From Pseudohongiella spirulinae (GTDB lineage: Bacteria > Pseudomonadota > Gammaproteobacteria > Pseudomonadales > Pseudohongiellaceae): a stretch of 64,000 bases of DNA. Where the stretch lies: NCBI RefSeq assembly GCF_001444425.1, contig NZ_CP013189.1, positions 1-64,000 of the forward strand, written 5' to 3'. The notes under the pieces are model-generated. The model searched no databases, was not told where the DNA came from, and was given only the letters and a program-made list of their open reading frames with translations. Position numbers and translations under genes: made by a program. Position 1 is the stretch's first letter, and every line of letters starts with the position of its first letter. Shown here piece after piece: positions 25,416 through 43,368 of the stretch.

Positions 25416-27020
25416 ATGAGTAGCGCTGCAATCGATCATGCACATGATCACGACCATCATCATGGTCCTGCCAAGGGCATAGCCCGGTGGCTGTTCACAA
25501 CCAACCACAAAGACATCGGCACGATGTATCTGTGGTTCAGCTTCGCAATGTTTCTGCTGGGCGGTACGTTTGCACTGGTAATCCGTGCTGAGCTGTTTCA
25601 GCCTGGTTTGCAATTTGTAGAGCCAAACTTCTTCAACCAGATGACCACCATGCACGGTCTGGTGATGGTATTCGGCGCGGTCATGCCCGCCTTCGTTGGT
25701 CTGGCTAACTGGATGATTCCGTTGATGATCGGCGCGCCGGATATGGCTCTGCCGCGGATGAACAACTGGAGCTTCTGGATCCTGCCGTTTGCCTTCACGT
25801 TGATGGTTATGACACTGTTCATGGAAGGTGGCGGTCCGAATTTCGGCTGGACGTTCTATGCACCGCTGTCGACGACCTATGCGCCTGACTCGGTGACATT
25901 CTTCATCTTTGCCGTGCACATTATGGGTGCTTCATCCATCATGGGTGCGATAAACGTTATCGCAACCATCCTGAACATGCGTGCCCCCGGCATGACACTG
26001 ATGAAGATGCCTTTGTTCGTCTGGACGTGGCTGATTACCGCGTACCTGCTGATTGCGGTTATGCCGGTACTGGCGGGTGTGGTTACGATGATGCTGTTTG
26101 ATATCCACTTCGGCACCAGCTTCTTTGATGCGGCCGGTGGTGGTGACCCTGTTCTGTTCCAGCACCTGTTCTGGTTCTTCGGCCACCCGGAAGTATATAT
26201 CATGATCCTGCCGGCTTTCGGTGTGATCTCGGCCATCATCCCGACGTTCGCCCGTAAGCGTCTGTTCGGTTATGACTCAATGGTTTACGCAACCGCGTCT
26301 ATCGCCTTCCTGTCATTCATCGTGTGGGCTCACCACATGTTTACAGTCGGTATGCCGCTGGCCGGCCAGCTGTTCTTCATGTATGCCACCATGCTTATTG
26401 CGGTTCCGACCGGCGTGAAAGTGTTTAACTGGGTTGCCACCATGTTCCGTGGCGCGATGACCTTTGAAACACCCATGTTGTTCGCCATCGCCTTTGTAGT
26501 ACTGTTCACCATCGGTGGGTTCACAGGGGTTATGCTGGCGATCACACCGGTAGACTTCCAGTACCACGATACCTACTTCGTAGTTGCCCACTTCCACTAC
26601 GTTCTGGTGCCGGGTGCGGTATTCTCACTGATGGCGGCTGCTTACTACTGGCTGCCGAAGTGGACCGGTTACATGTACGATGAAACACTGGGCAAGTTGC
26701 ATTTCTGGTTGTCGTTCATCGGCGTTAACCTGCTGTTCTTCCCGCAGCACTTCCTGGGACTGGCTGGTATGCCCCGCCGTATCCCTGACTATGCACTCCA
26801 GTTTGCGAACTTCAACTGGATCTCCAGTGTCGGTGGATTCCTGTTTGGCTTCTCTCAGCTGATTCTGCTGTTTGTGGTCATCAAGTGTATCCGTGGTGGC
26901 AAAAAGGCGACTGCTGAAGTATGGGAAGGTGCACAAGGTTTGGAGTGGACAGTGCCGTCTCCGGCGCCTTACCACACCTTTGAAACACCACCTGACCCAA
27001 GCCTGATCAAAGCTCAGTAA
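25416..27020 (+). CDS. coxA: Cytochrome c oxidase subunit I (aa3 type)
   Basis: This is the catalytic subunit that reduces O2 at the haem a3-CuB site and pumps protons. It is 534 aa with twelve membrane helices. A His-rich N-terminus (DHAHDHDHHH region) precedes WLFTTNHKDIGTMY. The GHPEVYIMILPAFG segment holds the D-channel glutamate and the His-Tyr of the CuB site. HHMFTVGM carries further CuB ligands and HFHYVL the haem ligands. It lies next to the subunit II gene and its assembly factors. Confidence 0.98.
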   Translation: MSSAAIDHAHDHDHHHGPAKGIARWLFTTNHKDIGTMYLWFSFAMFLLGGTFALVIRAELFQPGLQFVEPNFFNQMTTMHGLVMVFGAVMPAFVGLANWMIPLMIGAPDMALPRMNNWSFWILPFAFTLMVMTLFMEGGGPNFGWTFYAPLSTTYAPDSVTFFIFAVHIMGASSIMGAINVIATILNMRAPGMTLMKMPLFVWTWLITAYLLIAVMPVLAGVVTMMLFDIHFGTSFFDAAGGGDPVLFQHLFWFFGHPEVYIMILPAFGVISAIIPTFARKRLFGYDSMVYATASIAFLSFIVWAHHMFTVGMPLAGQLFFMYATMLIAVPTGVKVFNWVATMFRGAMTFETPMLFAIAFVVLFTIGGFTGVMLAITPVDFQYHDTYFVVAHFHYVLVPGAVFSLMAAAYYWLPKWTGYMYDETLGKLHFWLSFIGVNLLFFPQHFLGLAGMPRRIPDYALQFANFNWISSVGGFLFGFSQLILLFVVIKCIRGGKKATAEVWEGAQGLEWTVPSPAPYHTFETPPDPSLIKAQ

Positions 27021-32160: not shown

Positions 32161-33918
32161 TCAGTCCTTATGGTGAAACGTCTTTTCGTATTCTTCGCCG
32201 GGCTCATTCTGTGGAATAAAGTCCTTATCCGCGCCCGGCACACTGTAGTCGTAAGCCCATCGGTATACGCTGGGCAACTCCGGGCCCCAGTTACCGTGCT
32301 TGGGCGGCGTATCAGGGGTCTGCCATTCCAGCGTTGTGGCACCCCATGGGTTACCGTCAGCTTTCTCGCCGTTTCGCAGGCTCCAGAAAAGATTAATGAA
32401 GAACAGAATCTGGGCAACAGCTACAAAAATTGCCGCCAGAGTAATATTGGCATTCAGTGCCTGTGCAGAAGCGGGTACAAAATCGGTATTGCCCATTTCG
32501 AAATATCGACGTGGCACACCCAGGAACCCCAGATAGTGCATTGGCAGGTAAATAGCGTAGGTGCCAAGGAAGGTGCACCAGAAATGCACTTTACCCATCG
32601 TTTCGTTAAACATACGGCCGGTCATCTTCGGGTACCAGTGGTACAGCGCCGCGTATAGAACCAGAACCGGCGAGACACCCATTACCATATGAAAGTGCGC
32701 AACCACAAAATAGGTATCTGCCAGAGGCACGTCGATAATCACATTACCCAGGAACAGCCCGGTCAGCCCACCATGCACAAAAGTGAATATGAACCCAATG
32801 GCAAACAACATCGGTGTGTTCAGGCGAATGTTGCCCTGCCACAGCGTCAGTACCCAGTTATAGACCTTAAGTGCGGTTGGCACAGCGATAATCAGCGTAG
32901 TAGTGGCGAAGAAGAAGCCGAAATACGGGTTCATGCCACTGACATACATGTGGTGTGCCCAAACCAGGAAGCTCAAACCGCCAATGGCGATAATTGCCCA
33001 GACCATCATGCGATAACCGAATATATTCTTTCTGGCATGGGTGGCGATAACATCAGAAACCAGACCAAAAGCAGGAAGTGCCACGATATACACTTCCGGG
33101 TGACCGAAGAACCAGAAAAGGTGCTGGAACAGAATCGGACTGCCACCGTCGTAATCGAGCTGTTCACCCAGTTGCATCATTGCCGGCATAAAGAAACTGG
33201 TACCCAGCACCAGATCAAATCCCAGCATGATGGCGCTGACCAGCAATGCCGGGAAGGCAAAAAGGCCGAGCACTGTTGCGGTGAATATCCCCCAGATTGA
33301 CAGTGGCATGCGCATAAGAGTCATGCCGCGGGTCCTGGCCTGCAGAATCGTGGTCACATAGTTAAGGCCGCCCATGGTGAAGGCAACGATGAATACAGCC
33401 AGCGAAATGAGCATGAGTAACATGCCACCACCCGAGCCCGGGGTACCGGAAGTAATCGATTGCGGAGCGTACAATGTCCACCCTGCCCCGGCCGGACCGC
33501 CGGTCACAAAGAAACTGGCAAGCAAAATGAGAACCGAGAGAAAGTAAAACCAGAAACTCAGCATATTAAGGAATGGAAATACCATGTCCCGGGTACCACA
33601 CATCAGGGGGATCAGGTAGTTACCGAAGCCGCCCAGGAACAGGGCGGTCAACAGGTACACCACCATGATCATGCCGTGCATGGTCACAGCCTGATAATAA
33701 AAAGCCGGGTCGATCCAGCTGACAGTATCCGGGAAGCCCAATTGCAAGCGCATCAGAATGGACAGCACCAGGGCGATCAGACCCACAAAAATGGCTACGC
33801 CACCATATTGAATGGCGATTACCTTGTGATCCTGGCTCCAGATATATTTGGTAACGAAGCTGTGAGGATCGTGCAGCGCGTGCGGATCATCCTGGTCGGC
33901 TAATGGGACATAGGCCAT
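32161..33918 (-). CDS. Cytochrome c oxidase subunit I, second oxidase
   Basis: This is a second haem-copper oxidase catalytic subunit of 585 aa. It is 51 residues longer than the first, mostly in a soluble C-terminal tail after the last helix. It has YIWSQDHKVIAIQY, the FGHPEVYIVALPAFG segment with the D-channel glutamate and CuB His-Tyr, WAHHMYVSGMNP, and YFVVAHFHMVMG with haem ligands, so all catalytic residues appear present. GGAGGA lies eight bases before ATG 33918. The operon runs coxB2, coxA2, III-like, III, IV. Confidence 0.96.
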   Translation of the reverse strand: MAYVPLADQDDPHALHDPHSFVTKYIWSQDHKVIAIQYGGVAIFVGLIALVLSILMRLQLGFPDTVSWIDPAFYYQAVTMHGMIMVVYLLTALFLGGFGNYLIPLMCGTRDMVFPFLNMLSFWFYFLSVLILLASFFVTGGPAGAGWTLYAPQSITSGTPGSGGGMLLMLISLAVFIVAFTMGGLNYVTTILQARTRGMTLMRMPLSIWGIFTATVLGLFAFPALLVSAIMLGFDLVLGTSFFMPAMMQLGEQLDYDGGSPILFQHLFWFFGHPEVYIVALPAFGLVSDVIATHARKNIFGYRMMVWAIIAIGGLSFLVWAHHMYVSGMNPYFGFFFATTTLIIAVPTALKVYNWVLTLWQGNIRLNTPMLFAIGFIFTFVHGGLTGLFLGNVIIDVPLADTYFVVAHFHMVMGVSPVLVLYAALYHWYPKMTGRMFNETMGKVHFWCTFLGTYAIYLPMHYLGFLGVPRRYFEMGNTDFVPASAQALNANITLAAIFVAVAQILFFINLFWSLRNGEKADGNPWGATTLEWQTPDTPPKHGNWGPELPSVYRWAYDYSVPGADKDFIPQNEPGEEYEKTFHHKD

Positions 33919-33981
33919 GAAAACATCCTCCGGGTGTATGTAGCTGTCTTGCTATTCAAATTGTTGTTATTCAATACACGC

Positions 33982-35346
33982 TCAACGCAGGGTATTGATA
34001 TAGGCGATCACGTCATCCTGCTGTTGCGCTGTCCGCATGGCTTTGACCATGGAGGTCATCTGGTAACCATAGTCGTCTTCACGGTGTGCACCACGAACGC
34101 CGCTGCGGTAGTTCTCCAGTTGCAGTGCCATATACCAGTCGTCCATGCCGGCCAGCGCCGGTGCATCAGTTGCCCAGCTACCCTTGCCGTCTGCCCCGTG
34201 ACAGGCAGCACAGTTTGCGGTGTAAATTCGCTGACCGCGCTCAGCATCGCCGCTGATAGTTGTAGCTGCTGGCGTGACCGGCAGGGTTTCAATGTAAGCG
34301 GCAACATTGCGGCGAGCGGTTTCGGTATTCACCATATTCGCCATGGGTGCCATCATCTGGCCAAAGCTGTCTTCCGGATCAGCGCCGCGAACACCTTCGG
34401 AGTAATAGCGCAGCTGACGTTCGATGTACCAGGGTTGCAAGCCTGCCAGTTTAGGGGCGTTCATGGCACGGTTACCTTCGCCGTTCTGTCCGTGGCAACT
34501 GGCACAGACGGCGTACGATTGCTGACCAGCCGTGACATTGGCGGGAGCACGACTTTGGGTCTCAGCGAAAGTTGGCTGTTCCGCCAGCCAGTTCTCAAAG
34601 TCCCGTGGCTCCATGACTTCAACCCGCGCGCGCATGATATGGTGGCCAAGTCCGCAATATTGCTCACACAATATTTCGAAGACACCGGTTCGGGTGGGCT
34701 CGATCCACATGTACGACACCATGCCCGGTACCATGTCCATTTTTACCCGGAACTGCGGTACGGTGTAATTGTGCAGTACATCACGTGAACGAAGCAGTGC
34801 CTTGGTGGGTTGATTCAGTGGCAGCGCCATATATGGTTGCTTGATAACAATATCGTCCTGACCATTTGGGTCATCAGGGTTGACGCCCCAGGGGTTGGTT
34901 TCAGTGATATGGTTGATGTCCGCGGTACCCAGTTGCCCGTCAGCACCGGGGTAACGGAAGGACCATTGCCACTGGGACGCAAACGCTTCGAACTCGGTTG
35001 CTTCTTCTGGAACGGTGACAAACTGTGCCCATACAAACAGGCCCGGAGCCAGCATCGCGGCAACCCCAACTGTTGTGATCAGGGTCAGTCCGGTTTCCAG
35101 CCGGGCATTCTCCGGCTCGTAAACTGCCTTATGCTCAGCGCCTTTGCGCTGGCGATAACGGTAAACACTCCAGGCCAGAAACAGATTAACCAGTACAAAA
35201 ACTGTGCCGGTCACCCAGAAAGTCAGGTTGATGGTGAAATCAATATTCGACCAGTGCGAGGCGATTTCAGTGAACCACCAGGGGCTGGCAAAATGGAAAA
35301 CAACGGAGCCGACAACCAACAGGACGAGAACAACTGCAATAGCCAT
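33982..35346 (-). CDS. Cytochrome c oxidase subunit II with two cytochrome c domains, second oxidase
   Basis: This 454-aa CuA subunit is fused to two class I cytochrome c domains. Two membrane helices lie at about residues 1-22 and 36-60. The CuA ligands are in DVLHNYTVPQF and CEQYCGLGHHIM. The haem sites CASCHGQNGEG and CAACHGADGKG lie in tandem c4/c553-like repeats. The start is ATG 35346 with AAGGA upstream; an in-frame ATG at 35448 would add an untypical Cys/His-rich stretch. It is the first gene of the reversed operon. Two haems allow direct electron entry from a wider set of donors, an inference from architecture. Confidence 0.94.
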   Translation of the reverse strand: MAIAVVLVLLVVGSVVFHFASPWWFTEIASHWSNIDFTINLTFWVTGTVFVLVNLFLAWSVYRYRQRKGAEHKAVYEPENARLETGLTLITTVGVAAMLAPGLFVWAQFVTVPEEATEFEAFASQWQWSFRYPGADGQLGTADINHITETNPWGVNPDDPNGQDDIVIKQPYMALPLNQPTKALLRSRDVLHNYTVPQFRVKMDMVPGMVSYMWIEPTRTGVFEILCEQYCGLGHHIMRARVEVMEPRDFENWLAEQPTFAETQSRAPANVTAGQQSYAVCASCHGQNGEGNRAMNAPKLAGLQPWYIERQLRYYSEGVRGADPEDSFGQMMAPMANMVNTETARRNVAAYIETLPVTPAATTISGDAERGQRIYTANCAACHGADGKGSWATDAPALAGMDDWYMALQLENYRSGVRGAHREDDYGYQMTSMVKAMRTAQQQDDVIAYINTLR

Positions 35347-35671
35347 ACGCGGGATATCCTTGTGAAAGTGCGAGCACGGACAACAGTGGATACAGCAACT
35401 GTATAGCGAAAGATAATAAAAGGCCGGATGGACTGCTGAAGCAGCCACATCGGATGGTGAATGTTCTGGTTACGCAATTGACTACGAACGCTACAACAAA
35501 TTCCGCTCACAACGCGATCCCCCCCTTTTATTGTTAATCTTTCGGATGGGTACTCAACGTGTTACTTCGTACTTGTTCAATCAAACATTCAATCTGGGTT
35601 GGCGGCGATGAACACCGCCAACCTATCGGATCGTATAGTAATGCAAAGATCAGTGCAACAACTCAAATGGC
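35347..35671. other. 325-base gap upstream of the second oxidase operon
   Basis: This gap must contain the promoter of the reversed coxB2 operon. On the reverse strand a TTGAGT near 35559-35554 could be a -35 element, but no convincing -10 follows, so I do not call the promoter. A strong hairpin lies at 35597-35623 (listed separately). A run of seven C on the forward strand is seen near 35519-35525. No gene is visible. Confidence 0.4.
35597..35623 (-). terminator. Hairpin downstream of the 179-aa membrane protein gene
   Basis: GGTTGGCGG and CCGCCAACC make a perfect 9-bp stem with a 9-base loop, 49 bases after the stop of the gene ending at 35672. There is no strong T-run after it on either strand, so it may be a weak terminator or a transcript-stabilising structure. 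Confidence 0.5.
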
Positions 35672-40593: not shown

Positions 40594-43368
40594 ATGTCAG
40601 CGGACAGCCCCCTAATCCTCATTGACGGATCTTCGTATCTGTTCAGAGCCTTCCACGCCCTGCCGCCGCTGGTTAACAGCAAAGGTCAACCGACAGGTGC
40701 CATCAAGGGCGTGATAAGCATGATTCGCAGCCTGCAGAAATCACACCCCGATAGCCCTATAGCCGTTGTGTTTGATGCCAAGGGTGAAACATTTCGCAAT
40801 AAGGTTTACGCCGACTATAAAGCGCATCGGCCACCCATGCCGGATGAACTGCGCAGTCAGATAGAACCCATACACCATATCATCACGGCCATGGGGTTGC
40901 CGCTGCTGGTGGTGCCAGACGTTGAGGCCGACGATGTGATTGGCACACTGGCCGCGCAGGCCACGGCGCAGCAGCGCGATACCCTGGTGTCGACAGGAGA
41001 TAAAGATCTTGCGCAGTTAGTAAGTGATCACGTCGTGCTCATCAACACGATGACCGGAGAGCGCCTGGACCCGCCGGGGGTACAGAAAAAATTCAGCTTG
41101 CCGCCCGAGCGCATCATCGATTTCCTGGCGCTTACCGGGGACAAGGTCGACAATATTCCGGGTGTACCGGGTGTTGGCCCCAAGACGGCGATAAAGTGGC
41201 TGCAGGAATATGACTCAGTGGAAGGTGTCATTGCCAACGCCGACGAGATCGGCGGCAAGATCGGTGAAAAGCTGCGCGATAATATTGATCAGCTCAGACT
41301 TTCTTTCGAACTGGCCACCATCAAGCTGGATGTGGACCTGGACGTGACGATCAAAGAGCTGATACCGGAATCTCCCGACCGCGAGCAGTTGCTTGCCCTG
41401 TTCACAGAATTTGAATTCAAATCCTGGATCAAGGAGCTGGAAGCCGACGGAATTGAAGTAAGCGTCGAACAGATGGCCGCCATGCGTGACAATCTTGGTA
41501 TTGAGGAGGTTGAAGAGGCTGCGCAAACAGACCTGTCGTCCCTGGATCTGGATACAGATCAGAAGGACTTTACGCTTGTTGATAGTCTGGATGTGCTGCA
41601 AAAAGTCGCTGGCGATGCAAAAAAGGCGTCTTTGCTGGCCATTGATGTCCTGGATAGTGGCGAACATTATATGCAGGCCACCATCATCGGTATGGCGCTG
41701 AGCTGGGCTTCGGGCCAGGCTGTATATATTCCTTTGGCGCATGATGGTCTGGAGTCCTCCGGCGCGCTGGATCGCCGCCGCTGTCTGGAGTTTCTGAAAC
41801 CTTTAATGGAAGATCCTGGCGTCCACAAGGCAGCGCATGACACCAAGCGTCTGACCCACCTGTTACAGAATCATGATATTCATGTTGATGGCTGGCGTTT
41901 CGATACGCATCTGGCGTCCTACGTACTGAATTCTGTGGCCAGCAATCATTCACTTGAAGATGTCAGCCACTACTATCTCCAGAAATCGCTGGAAAAACTG
42001 GATGCACTGATTGGCAGTGGCCGACAGAAACTGGCTCTCAGTCAGACTTCGGCCCAGGATGCCATGCAGTGGCTGGCACCACGGGTGGACATGGCCCTGC
42101 GTCTGGCCCATCAGTTACGCAGTCAGCTGGAGTCTACCGGCGAACTCTGGGGCCTGTATCGATACTACGAATTGGCACTGAGTCCTGTACTACAGCGTAT
42201 GGAGCGCACTGGCATCGCCGTTGATCCGCAGCGGCTGCATGAGCAGTCCAGGGCATTGAGTGCCCGCCTCAAGGAGCTGGAGGAGCAGGTCTACAGCGCC
42301 GCTGGCGAAACCTTCAATCTGGGTTCTCCCAAGCAGTTGCAGGCAATTCTGTATGACAAGTTGAACCTGCCTGTTTTGAAAAAAACCCCGAAAGGCCAGC
42401 CATCTACTGCCGAGGCGGTACTGCAGGAGCTGGCGCTGGACTACGAGCTGCCTGGCATGATCATGGAGCATCGCGGTCTCAGCAAGTTGAAGTCTACCTA
42501 CACAGAAAAACTGCCCTTGCAGATAAATGCCGGCACCGGGCGTATCCATTCCACCTTTCAGCAGGCGGTCGCAGCGACTGGCCGTCTGTCATCCACCGAT
42601 CCCAATTTGCAGAACATCCCGATCCGTAGCGTTGAAGGGCGGAAGATCCGACAGGCCTTTGTTGCAGCGCCAGGCTATAAACTGCTGGCTGCAGACTACT
42701 CGCAGGTTGAGTTGCGAATCATGGCCCATCTATCGCAGGACAAGGGTTTGGTGACCGCTTTTGCCAATGCTCAGGATGTACACCGTGCGACGGCGTCTGA
42801 AGTGTTTGGCGTGGCACTGGATGAGGTGACTGCGGAACAGCGTCGGCGAGCCAAGGCCATCAATTTCGGACTGATCTACGGAATGTCAGCCTTCGGCCTG
42901 GCCCGGCAATTGGGCATTGAACGCCATGACGCCCAGCAATACGTCGATCGCTATTTTGAACGCTACCCCGGTGTTCAGGACTATATGGAACGCACGCGCG
43001 AACTGGCAGAATCGCAGGGATACGTCGAAACGCTGTTTGGACGACGCCTGTATTTGCCCGATATCAAGGCGGGCAATGGCATGTTGCGCAAAGCCGCCCA
43101 GCGGACCGCGATCAACGCGCCCATGCAGGGTACGGCAGCCGACATTATCAAGCAGGCAATGGTCGACATAGACCATTGGCTGCAAACTGGCGTGCTGGAT
43201 GCGCGACTGGTACTACAAGTACACGATGAACTGATTTTTGAGGTGAGCGACAACGACGTGCCGTTACTCTCTGACGGCGTGCGATTCCGCATGGCAAGTG
43301 CCGCTTCGCTGGACGTGCCGCTGGTGGTGGATATTGGCGTGGGAGATAATTGGGACCAGGCTCACTGA
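40594..43368 (+). CDS. polA: DNA polymerase I (proofreading site apparently inactive)
   Basis: Pol I fills gaps and removes RNA primers. It is 924 aa (E. coli 928). The 5' nuclease domain (about 1-290) has [23 protein letters not shown] and [10 protein letters not shown]. The polymerase domain keeps motif [15 protein letters not shown], motif [14 protein letters not shown] and motif [10 protein letters not shown]. The middle exonuclease domain keeps its fold and length but not its active site. Aligned by eye with Klenow, D355 is D351, E357 is L353, D424 is L420, Y497 is W493 and D501 is R497. It should polymerise without 3'-5' proofreading. Its end overlaps convergent engB by 7 bases. Confidence 0.97.

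Follow-up and report, generated by a model that had tools for sequence, protein, structure and literature searches.

Loss of the proofreading active-site residues in DNA polymerase I of Pseudohongiella spirulinae and related gammaproteobacteria

The first 64,000 nucleotides of contig NZ_CP013189.1 of Pseudohongiella spirulinae (assembly GCF_001444425.1, forward strand), here called the window, contain polA, the gene of DNA polymerase I (Pol I). The host is a marine gammaproteobacterium of the family Pseudohongiellaceae (code f1 below), order Pseudomonadales. Gammaproteobacteria are the class in which Pol I proofreading was worked out, and the locus raises a question: can a Pol I of this class have lost its 3'-5' editing exonuclease, and if so, why is the domain still present? 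A sequence-only reading of the window had proposed such a loss. We suggest, with a probability of about 0.9, that the protein is a non-editing Pol I which keeps a pseudo-exonuclease domain as a scaffold.

The editing active site of PolA is substituted

Structurally, the DEDDy exonuclease site of E. coli Pol I consists of the metal ligands D355, E357, D424 and D501 together with Y497. In a MAFFT alignment with E. coli PolA (the RefSeq E. coli record, row L076), D355/E357/D424/Y497/D501 correspond to D351/L353/L420/W493/R497 of the window protein, i.e., the four ligand positions hold D, L, L and R and the tyrosine is replaced by W. The HMMER alignment of residues 334-924 with Klenow residues 15-605 contains zero gaps, so the alignment register is secure. 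The domain and the substituted positions, the latter placed by both alignments, are:

41551..42147, plus strand: pseudo 3'-5' exonuclease domain, residues 320-518, DEDDy site lost and fold kept (alignment, Pfam, AlphaFold2, Foldseek)
41644..41652, plus strand: ExoI motif position, D351 V352 L353 replacing D355 T356 E357
41851..41853, plus strand: L420 replacing the metal ligand D424
42070..42072, plus strand: W493 replacing Y497
42082..42084, plus strand: R497 replacing the metal ligand D501

The sequence-only reading had named these changes (DTE to DVL at 351-353, L420, W493 and R497), and all are as it gave them, with the codons inside 41641-42100. It had also counted one of the four metal-binding acids as remaining. 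D351 is indeed present; however, it is not an apparent preserved ligand. Across 13 rows of the genus (a row being one aligned PolA) the position is A in 10, G in one, E in one and D only in the window, so D351 does not look like a retained ligand in this alignment and is probably a secondary change.

The rest of the chain is that of an ordinary Pol I. All domains of the three-domain PolA1 chain (PF02739, PF01367, PF22619, PF01612 and PF00476) score over their cut-offs, and the equivalog cut-offs are clearly exceeded (1148 against 720 bits for NF004397, 929 against 600 bits for TIGR00593). In the 3.35 Mb single-contig genome a PF00476 search finds PolA as the sole family-A polymerase.

40594..43368, plus strand: polA, DNA polymerase I, 924 amino acids (open reading frame; NCBIfam NF004397 1148 bits, TIGR00593 929 bits; single PF00476 match genome-wide)
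40612..41382, plus strand: 5'-3' exonuclease/flap endonuclease domain, residues 7-263, catalytic acids intact (PF02739, PF01367; residue identity)
42229..43356, plus strand: polymerase domain, family A, catalytic residues intact (PF00476, 540.7 bits; residue alignment)

The seven acids that we take to be catalytic in the 5' nuclease (E. coli D13, D63, E113, D115, D116, D138 and D140) are all identical in the window protein, as they are in 232 of 232 covered rows. In the polymerase domain, D701, D878 and E879 correspond to E. coli D705, D882 and E883, the O-helix residues are also identical to those of E. coli, and the polymerase residues RRKFYQH/DDE are identical in all 234 covered rows.

The loss extends over the family and beyond it

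The PolA reading took in 116 rows of the order from 42 family codes, a good many of which are represented by one genome. The sample was purposely enriched in low-scoring exonuclease domains: exonuclease-domain searches covered 391 genomes, most of which were not read for the motif. At the five positions 60 rows read DEDYD and 56 are altered, a proportion that is no frequency because of this enrichment. Alteration is found in every row read of three families, f1 (35/35), f6 (11/11) and f7 (2/2). Three families are mixed, with altered rows L142, L155, L156, L150, L152, L158, L159 and L160 in f24, f39 and f35, and the remaining 36 of the 42 read DEDYD in all rows. Six further named loci, 58-62% identical to the window PolA, are altered as well (L059, L062, L063, L065, L066 and L069). 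Pseudohongiella sp. O18 (row L052), of the same genus, has a PolA 80% identical to that of the window; the same protein occurs in a further genome of the genus (G009).

A class-wide draw comprised 115 genomes, two without a PolA match, one too partial and two from the order (one of them the window genome). Among the remaining 110 family representatives, 98 read DEDYD and 12 are altered, ten of these at two or more positions; L216 differs only at D424 and L232 only at Y497. For L251 and L327 the alignment behind the motif reading is uncertain. Thus, the expectation that Gammaproteobacteria keep the site is correct for the majority, both here and in the order families, and wrong as a universal rule. 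The sequence-only reading had framed it as a habit of enterics, which is misplaced since the host is not enteric; enterics enter our comparison as one E. coli record.

Across the rows the state of the active site is nearly bimodal. Among 233 fully called rows, 160 have lost no acid, two have lost one, four two, 34 three and 33 all four (L160, with a gap at one position, is counted as lacking that acid). The rarity of intermediates suggests that loss of the site, once begun in a lineage, runs to completion. Partial genes were not counted (G004, G006, G020, G036, G045, G050, G112, G115, G134, G234 and G504).

We also looked for a relocated active site. In E. coli numbering, the sole acid present in 100% of f1, f6 and f7 is D441; D503 reaches 92-100%. 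Both are equally common in active enzymes (100% and 89%), so no relocated site is indicated.

In the class sample, the nine genomes with at least two altered positions have a median size of 1.7 Mb, against 2.9 Mb in the 98 active ones (Mann-Whitney p 0.0014, kinship ignored; the single-change rows G481 and G494, and G447, were left out). Pseudohongiellaceae genomes, unlike these small class-wide losers, are of ordinary size. Across bacteria, no link between genome size and a substituted Pol I exonuclease was reported in the sections available of Timinskas et al. 2026 (PMC12926913).

Two class-wide proteins seem to be further decayed: the inactive domain of L251 has 156 residues against the usual 194, and L327 is gapped at the motifs. 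Separately, in a genome bin of the window's family (row L051, G028:C6:33300-36091) polA is split over frames, with a longest open piece of 576 amino acids, through a frameshift or an assembly error.

The site was lost several times

How often the site was lost within the order was estimated from three trees. In a PolA tree built without the exonuclease columns (111 rows, leaving out near-duplicates, partial rows and some named loci), f1 and f7 are joined (Shimodaira-Hasegawa-like approximate likelihood ratio support 99) and f6 is placed elsewhere. Seven changes are needed on this tree, one of them the lone D501N of L067, and the starred branches force five. A gyrB tree of 57 genomes likewise needs seven changes, of which four are forced, and the combined gyrB and PolA tree needs six, all six forced by starred branches (G047 was left out of the gyrB trees). 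However, a separate loss in f6 is less secure than these counts imply. Holding f1, f6 and f7 together is not rejected by the approximately unbiased test (p 0.286 for gyrB and PolA, p 0.596 for gyrB), and on gyrB the tree constrained in this way scored 7.27 higher. We therefore count about five or six independent losses in the order and not a firm six; the class sample adds others.

A tree of the exonuclease domain (leaving out near-duplicates, partial rows, some named loci, L160 and any row that lacks a family code) joins nearly all inactive domains, with L142 apart. As these rows are the fastest-evolving ones and have the lost state in common, this tree was set aside and not used to infer one origin.

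Fold and evolution of the inactive domain

In its predicted structure the window domain has an RNase H-like exonuclease fold. AlphaFold2, run with 22 sequences, models it with a predicted local distance difference test (pLDDT) value of 90.9 (85.1 for the Klenow-equivalent part). In Foldseek its best PDB match is Klenow 1d8y, with a template modelling (TM) score of 0.91 and 1.4 A over 189 columns, and the best matches of the whole Klenow-equivalent fragment are also Klenow structures (query TM 0.81-0.87 for the five best entries). The predicted fold thus superposes on Klenow, yet three of the four ligand positions, as placed by sequence alignment, carry no acid. The sequence-only reading had held that fold, domain length and polymerase site are intact, which agrees with the predicted fold and the alignments, and the 5'-nuclease site can be added to this list. 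The alignment check that it had proposed has the same outcome: against Klenow, three of four ligands and the tyrosine are replaced in the window protein, and all 35 family rows lack the quartet. The loss of Pol I proofreading, to judge from these residues, is very probably true.

The inactive domains diverge faster than the polymerase domains of the same proteins. The ratio of exonuclease to polymerase divergence is 3.10 in f1 and 2.84 in f6, and the single f7 pair gives 5.32. Within the six all-active families with at least two rows it is 0.93-1.70, in the mixed families it is 1.54-2.26, and random active pairs give 1.35. The same ratio for the 5' nuclease is 1.16 in f1 and 1.00 in f6 (1.88 for the single f7 pair). 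In the 13 closest f1 pairs, the ratio of nonsynonymous to synonymous rates (dN/dS, Nei-Gojobori) of the exonuclease domain is nevertheless 0.044-0.120, far below 1, with polymerase-domain values of 0.015-0.051 in the 12 of these 13 pairs where it is readable. Farther f1 pairs give exonuclease values of 0.20-0.42, near saturation. The domain has 194 residues in 27 of 34 f1 rows, both f7 rows and 129 of 159 active rows. Positions conserved at 90% make up 15% of the exonuclease and 57% of the polymerase domain in f1, as against 23% and 42% in active rows.

Three residues of the inactive cleft stand out in the row alignment:

41665..41667, plus strand: H358 (E. coli 362), His in 48/52 rows of f1, f6 and f7; D or N in 133/159 active rows
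41845..41847, plus strand: K418 (E. coli K422), invariant in 231/231 rows, active and inactive
41857..41859, plus strand: H422 (E. coli 426), His in 52/52 rows of f1, f6 and f7 against 24/159 active rows

At E. coli position 362, at most 9 of 159 active rows have His. A fourth residue, D416 (E. coli 420), is Asp in 44 of 52 rows of the three families, in neither f7 row and in none of the 159 active rows.

Alternative explanations

Could the missing acids be an artefact of sequencing or alignment? The chance of this is negligible, as the alignment to Klenow is gap-free, the genome is a single contig and the same state is seen in isolates and in metagenome bins of several records. The quartet is missing in all 35 family rows and the state is nearly bimodal, which speaks against chance or sequencing error. 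A different possibility, considered by the sequence-only reading, is that there is no net loss because proofreading for Pol I is supplied in trans by another 3'-5' exonuclease. The genome does contain candidates, with four matches to the RNase_T family: the epsilon subunit of Pol III (DnaQ), oligoribonuclease, RNase T and exonuclease I. However, four is not an excess, since among the 25 genomes sampled 3-7 such matches occur where the Pol I exonuclease is active and 4-7 in members of the three inactive families. Pol II has no match in the window genome and is absent from nine of ten f1 genomes tested; it is present in 22 of 58 genomes tested and missing from many active families too. Nor does a new nuclease adjoin polA, whose neighbours in the window are znuA and yihA/ysxC. 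The genome encodes DnaE1, DnaE2 and a second 5'-nuclease protein (L342). A second, DnaE2-like full-length match occurs in six of ten f1 genomes and is also scattered through active families. In the PolB (58 genomes), DnaE (58) and RNase_T (25) families we found nothing specific to the inactive clades; other exonuclease families were not searched. Proofreading in trans is thus unsupported and, in our judgement, very unlikely.

Two further explanations concern the domain itself. If it were in neutral decay and heading for loss, with no function left, its divergence relative to the polymerase would be elevated, and it is two- to threefold that of active clades; the 156-residue domain of L251 and the gapped motifs of L327 show inactive domains elsewhere in the class that could be on such a path. 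However, dN/dS is well below 1, no internal stop occurs in the full-length f1 PolA matches listed (the split gene of G028 excepted), the length in f1 is nearly constant despite a median exonuclease identity of 40%, and Pfam and fold recognition are retained. We regard neutral decay as quite improbable. Conversely, the inactive cleft could now serve, under selection, to bind without cutting; its ligand would be, for example, the single-stranded end of a primer or a partner protein. This would fit the low dN/dS as well as H358, D416 and H422, which mark the inactive families, and the invariant K418; all four presumably fall in the single-stranded-DNA-binding stretch of Klenow. However, the His at 426 is already found in active neighbours (rows L096, L098 and L126 of f38, L034 of f11) and may be mere inheritance, which weakens a special role for it. 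Other contact positions (423, 361, 473 and, in f1, 455) are scattered, and the 15% of conserved exonuclease positions in f1, against 57% in the polymerase, is little for a selected binding site. Such repurposing is unlikely. In its most specific form it can be speculated that in f1, its sister family and f6 the cleft was rebuilt, possibly with more than one independent origin, round H-Y/F ... H/Y-D/N-x-K-x-x-x-H (E. coli 362-363, 419-422 and 426) into a non-cutting DNA or ligand pocket that influences what Pol I does at mismatched or damaged primer ends; this, too, we hold to be doubtful.

A probable non-editing Pol I with a proposed scaffold domain

A Pol I that no longer edits and keeps the pseudo-exonuclease as a scaffold is the best reading of these results. 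The residues are lost in every sampled member of the family, the other active sites are intact, the predicted fold and the f1 length are kept, and the domain diverges faster relative to its own protein. From this we infer absence of activity, a scaffold role and an effect on fidelity.

We suggest that the editing exonuclease was inactivated in the ancestor of Pseudohongiellaceae and its sister family. Removal of RNA primers by the N-terminal 5' nuclease and gap filling by the C-terminal polymerase would continue. Binding of the two catalytic metal ions by the middle domain would have been lost, and with it the ability to excise a mispaired 3' end; the domain would be retained because the polymerase needs a structural shell. 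By analogy with the Pol I of Helicobacter pylori, mismatched primer ends could then be extended instead of removed, repair and Okazaki gap-filling would be less accurate and small lesions would be bypassed more easily. A raised mutation rate may plausibly follow.

Data on engineered polymerases lean towards a scaffold role here, by analogy and without amounting to proof. According to the text available of PMC6457538, most Klenow pieces without the domain are poorly soluble, and the engineered HoLaMa, with eleven mutations, is 10-fold less efficient.

Several points weigh on the other side. The same source describes HoLaMa, which lacks the domain, as a folded protein whose stability is about that of Klenow and whose affinity for DNA is similar. 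Active pairs (f20, f36 and f40) have exonuclease dN/dS values of 0.060-0.254, so those of f1 are not higher in absolute terms, and relaxation of the inactive domain can be claimed only relative to its own protein. In f6 the domain length drifts between 193 and 205 residues. The unusual conservation of K418, H358 and H422 in the inactive clades is not directly predicted by a pure scaffold. Finally, the substituted site may retain weak activity with an altered metal chemistry.

Comparison with known polymerases

E. coli Pol I shares the architecture, the gap-free alignment over residues 334-924 and, as Klenow, the best structural match. It keeps D355, E357, D424, Y497 and D501, whereas the window protein keeps only the Asp of the first position. 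H. pylori, which belongs to a different phylum from Pseudohongiella, provides a functional parallel. Its Pol I (HP1470) also has a working 5' nuclease and polymerase and a likely preserved exonuclease fold, and has lost at least the positions of D355, D424 and D501 (PMC3121766, in the parts available). The same parts report no 3'-5' exonuclease in vitro, extension of mismatches and promotion of mutagenesis. The H. pylori enzyme has thus been assayed, whereas the window PolA is known from its sequence; H. pylori is also described there as lacking translesion polymerases, whereas the window genome has DnaE2.

The Pol I enzymes of Bacillus/Geobacillus (BF/Bst) and Thermus (Taq) are familiar for their vestigial domain. 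A general statement to this effect, i.e., an exonuclease domain without working ligands, is found in the portion available of PMC12776460. In Foldseek the window domain is closer to Klenow (TM 0.90-0.91) than to the listed Bst chains (0.63-0.71). The sequence-only reading had named Thermus and some Bacillus as the known cases, which is too narrow. According to the accessible text of PMC12926913, the DEDDy motif is substituted in about half of the Pol I orthologues of bacteria, and the division largely follows phyla. The window PolA belongs to the inactive-exonuclease PolA1 class of that study, being a PolA1 orthologue with a substituted DEDDy motif and a retained fold. The main text of PMC12926913 does not name Pseudohongiella, and its available parts name no gammaproteobacterial case, although the supplements may list one. 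In the titles and abstract openings of literature on Pseudohongiella polymerases and on Pol I exonuclease loss in Gammaproteobacteria or Proteobacteria, we found no paper on this loss.

Since Pol I enzymes that do not proofread are already known to be common among bacteria, current knowledge is not overturned, and the Pseudohongiella case adds a member to that kind. Its value is modest and lies in the recurrence of the loss within a class generally assumed to keep proofreading. Since the site was lost several times in one gammaproteobacterial order with the other two active sites of the chain unchanged, it constitutes a natural experiment. Mutation spectra can be compared in pairs of relatives of which one has Pol I proofreading and the other does not, and the altered lineages of f24, f39 and f35 with their site-keeping relatives are useful pairs for this. 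The experiment also separates a structural from a catalytic role of the domain.

Other observations

At the DnaE2 locus (L340, 1436-3403 and 3469-6606) there is no recognisable imuA/imuB directly before DnaE2. The two open reading frames that precede the DnaE2 gene in the same orientation appear to encode secreted proteins, and neither has a Pfam or NCBIfam match.

The window also contains two separate genes of cytochrome c oxidase subunit I less than 10 kb apart, at 25416-27020 and 32161-35448. The second is on the minus strand, scores 653 bits against a cut-off of 670.75 and lies beside a subunit II gene.
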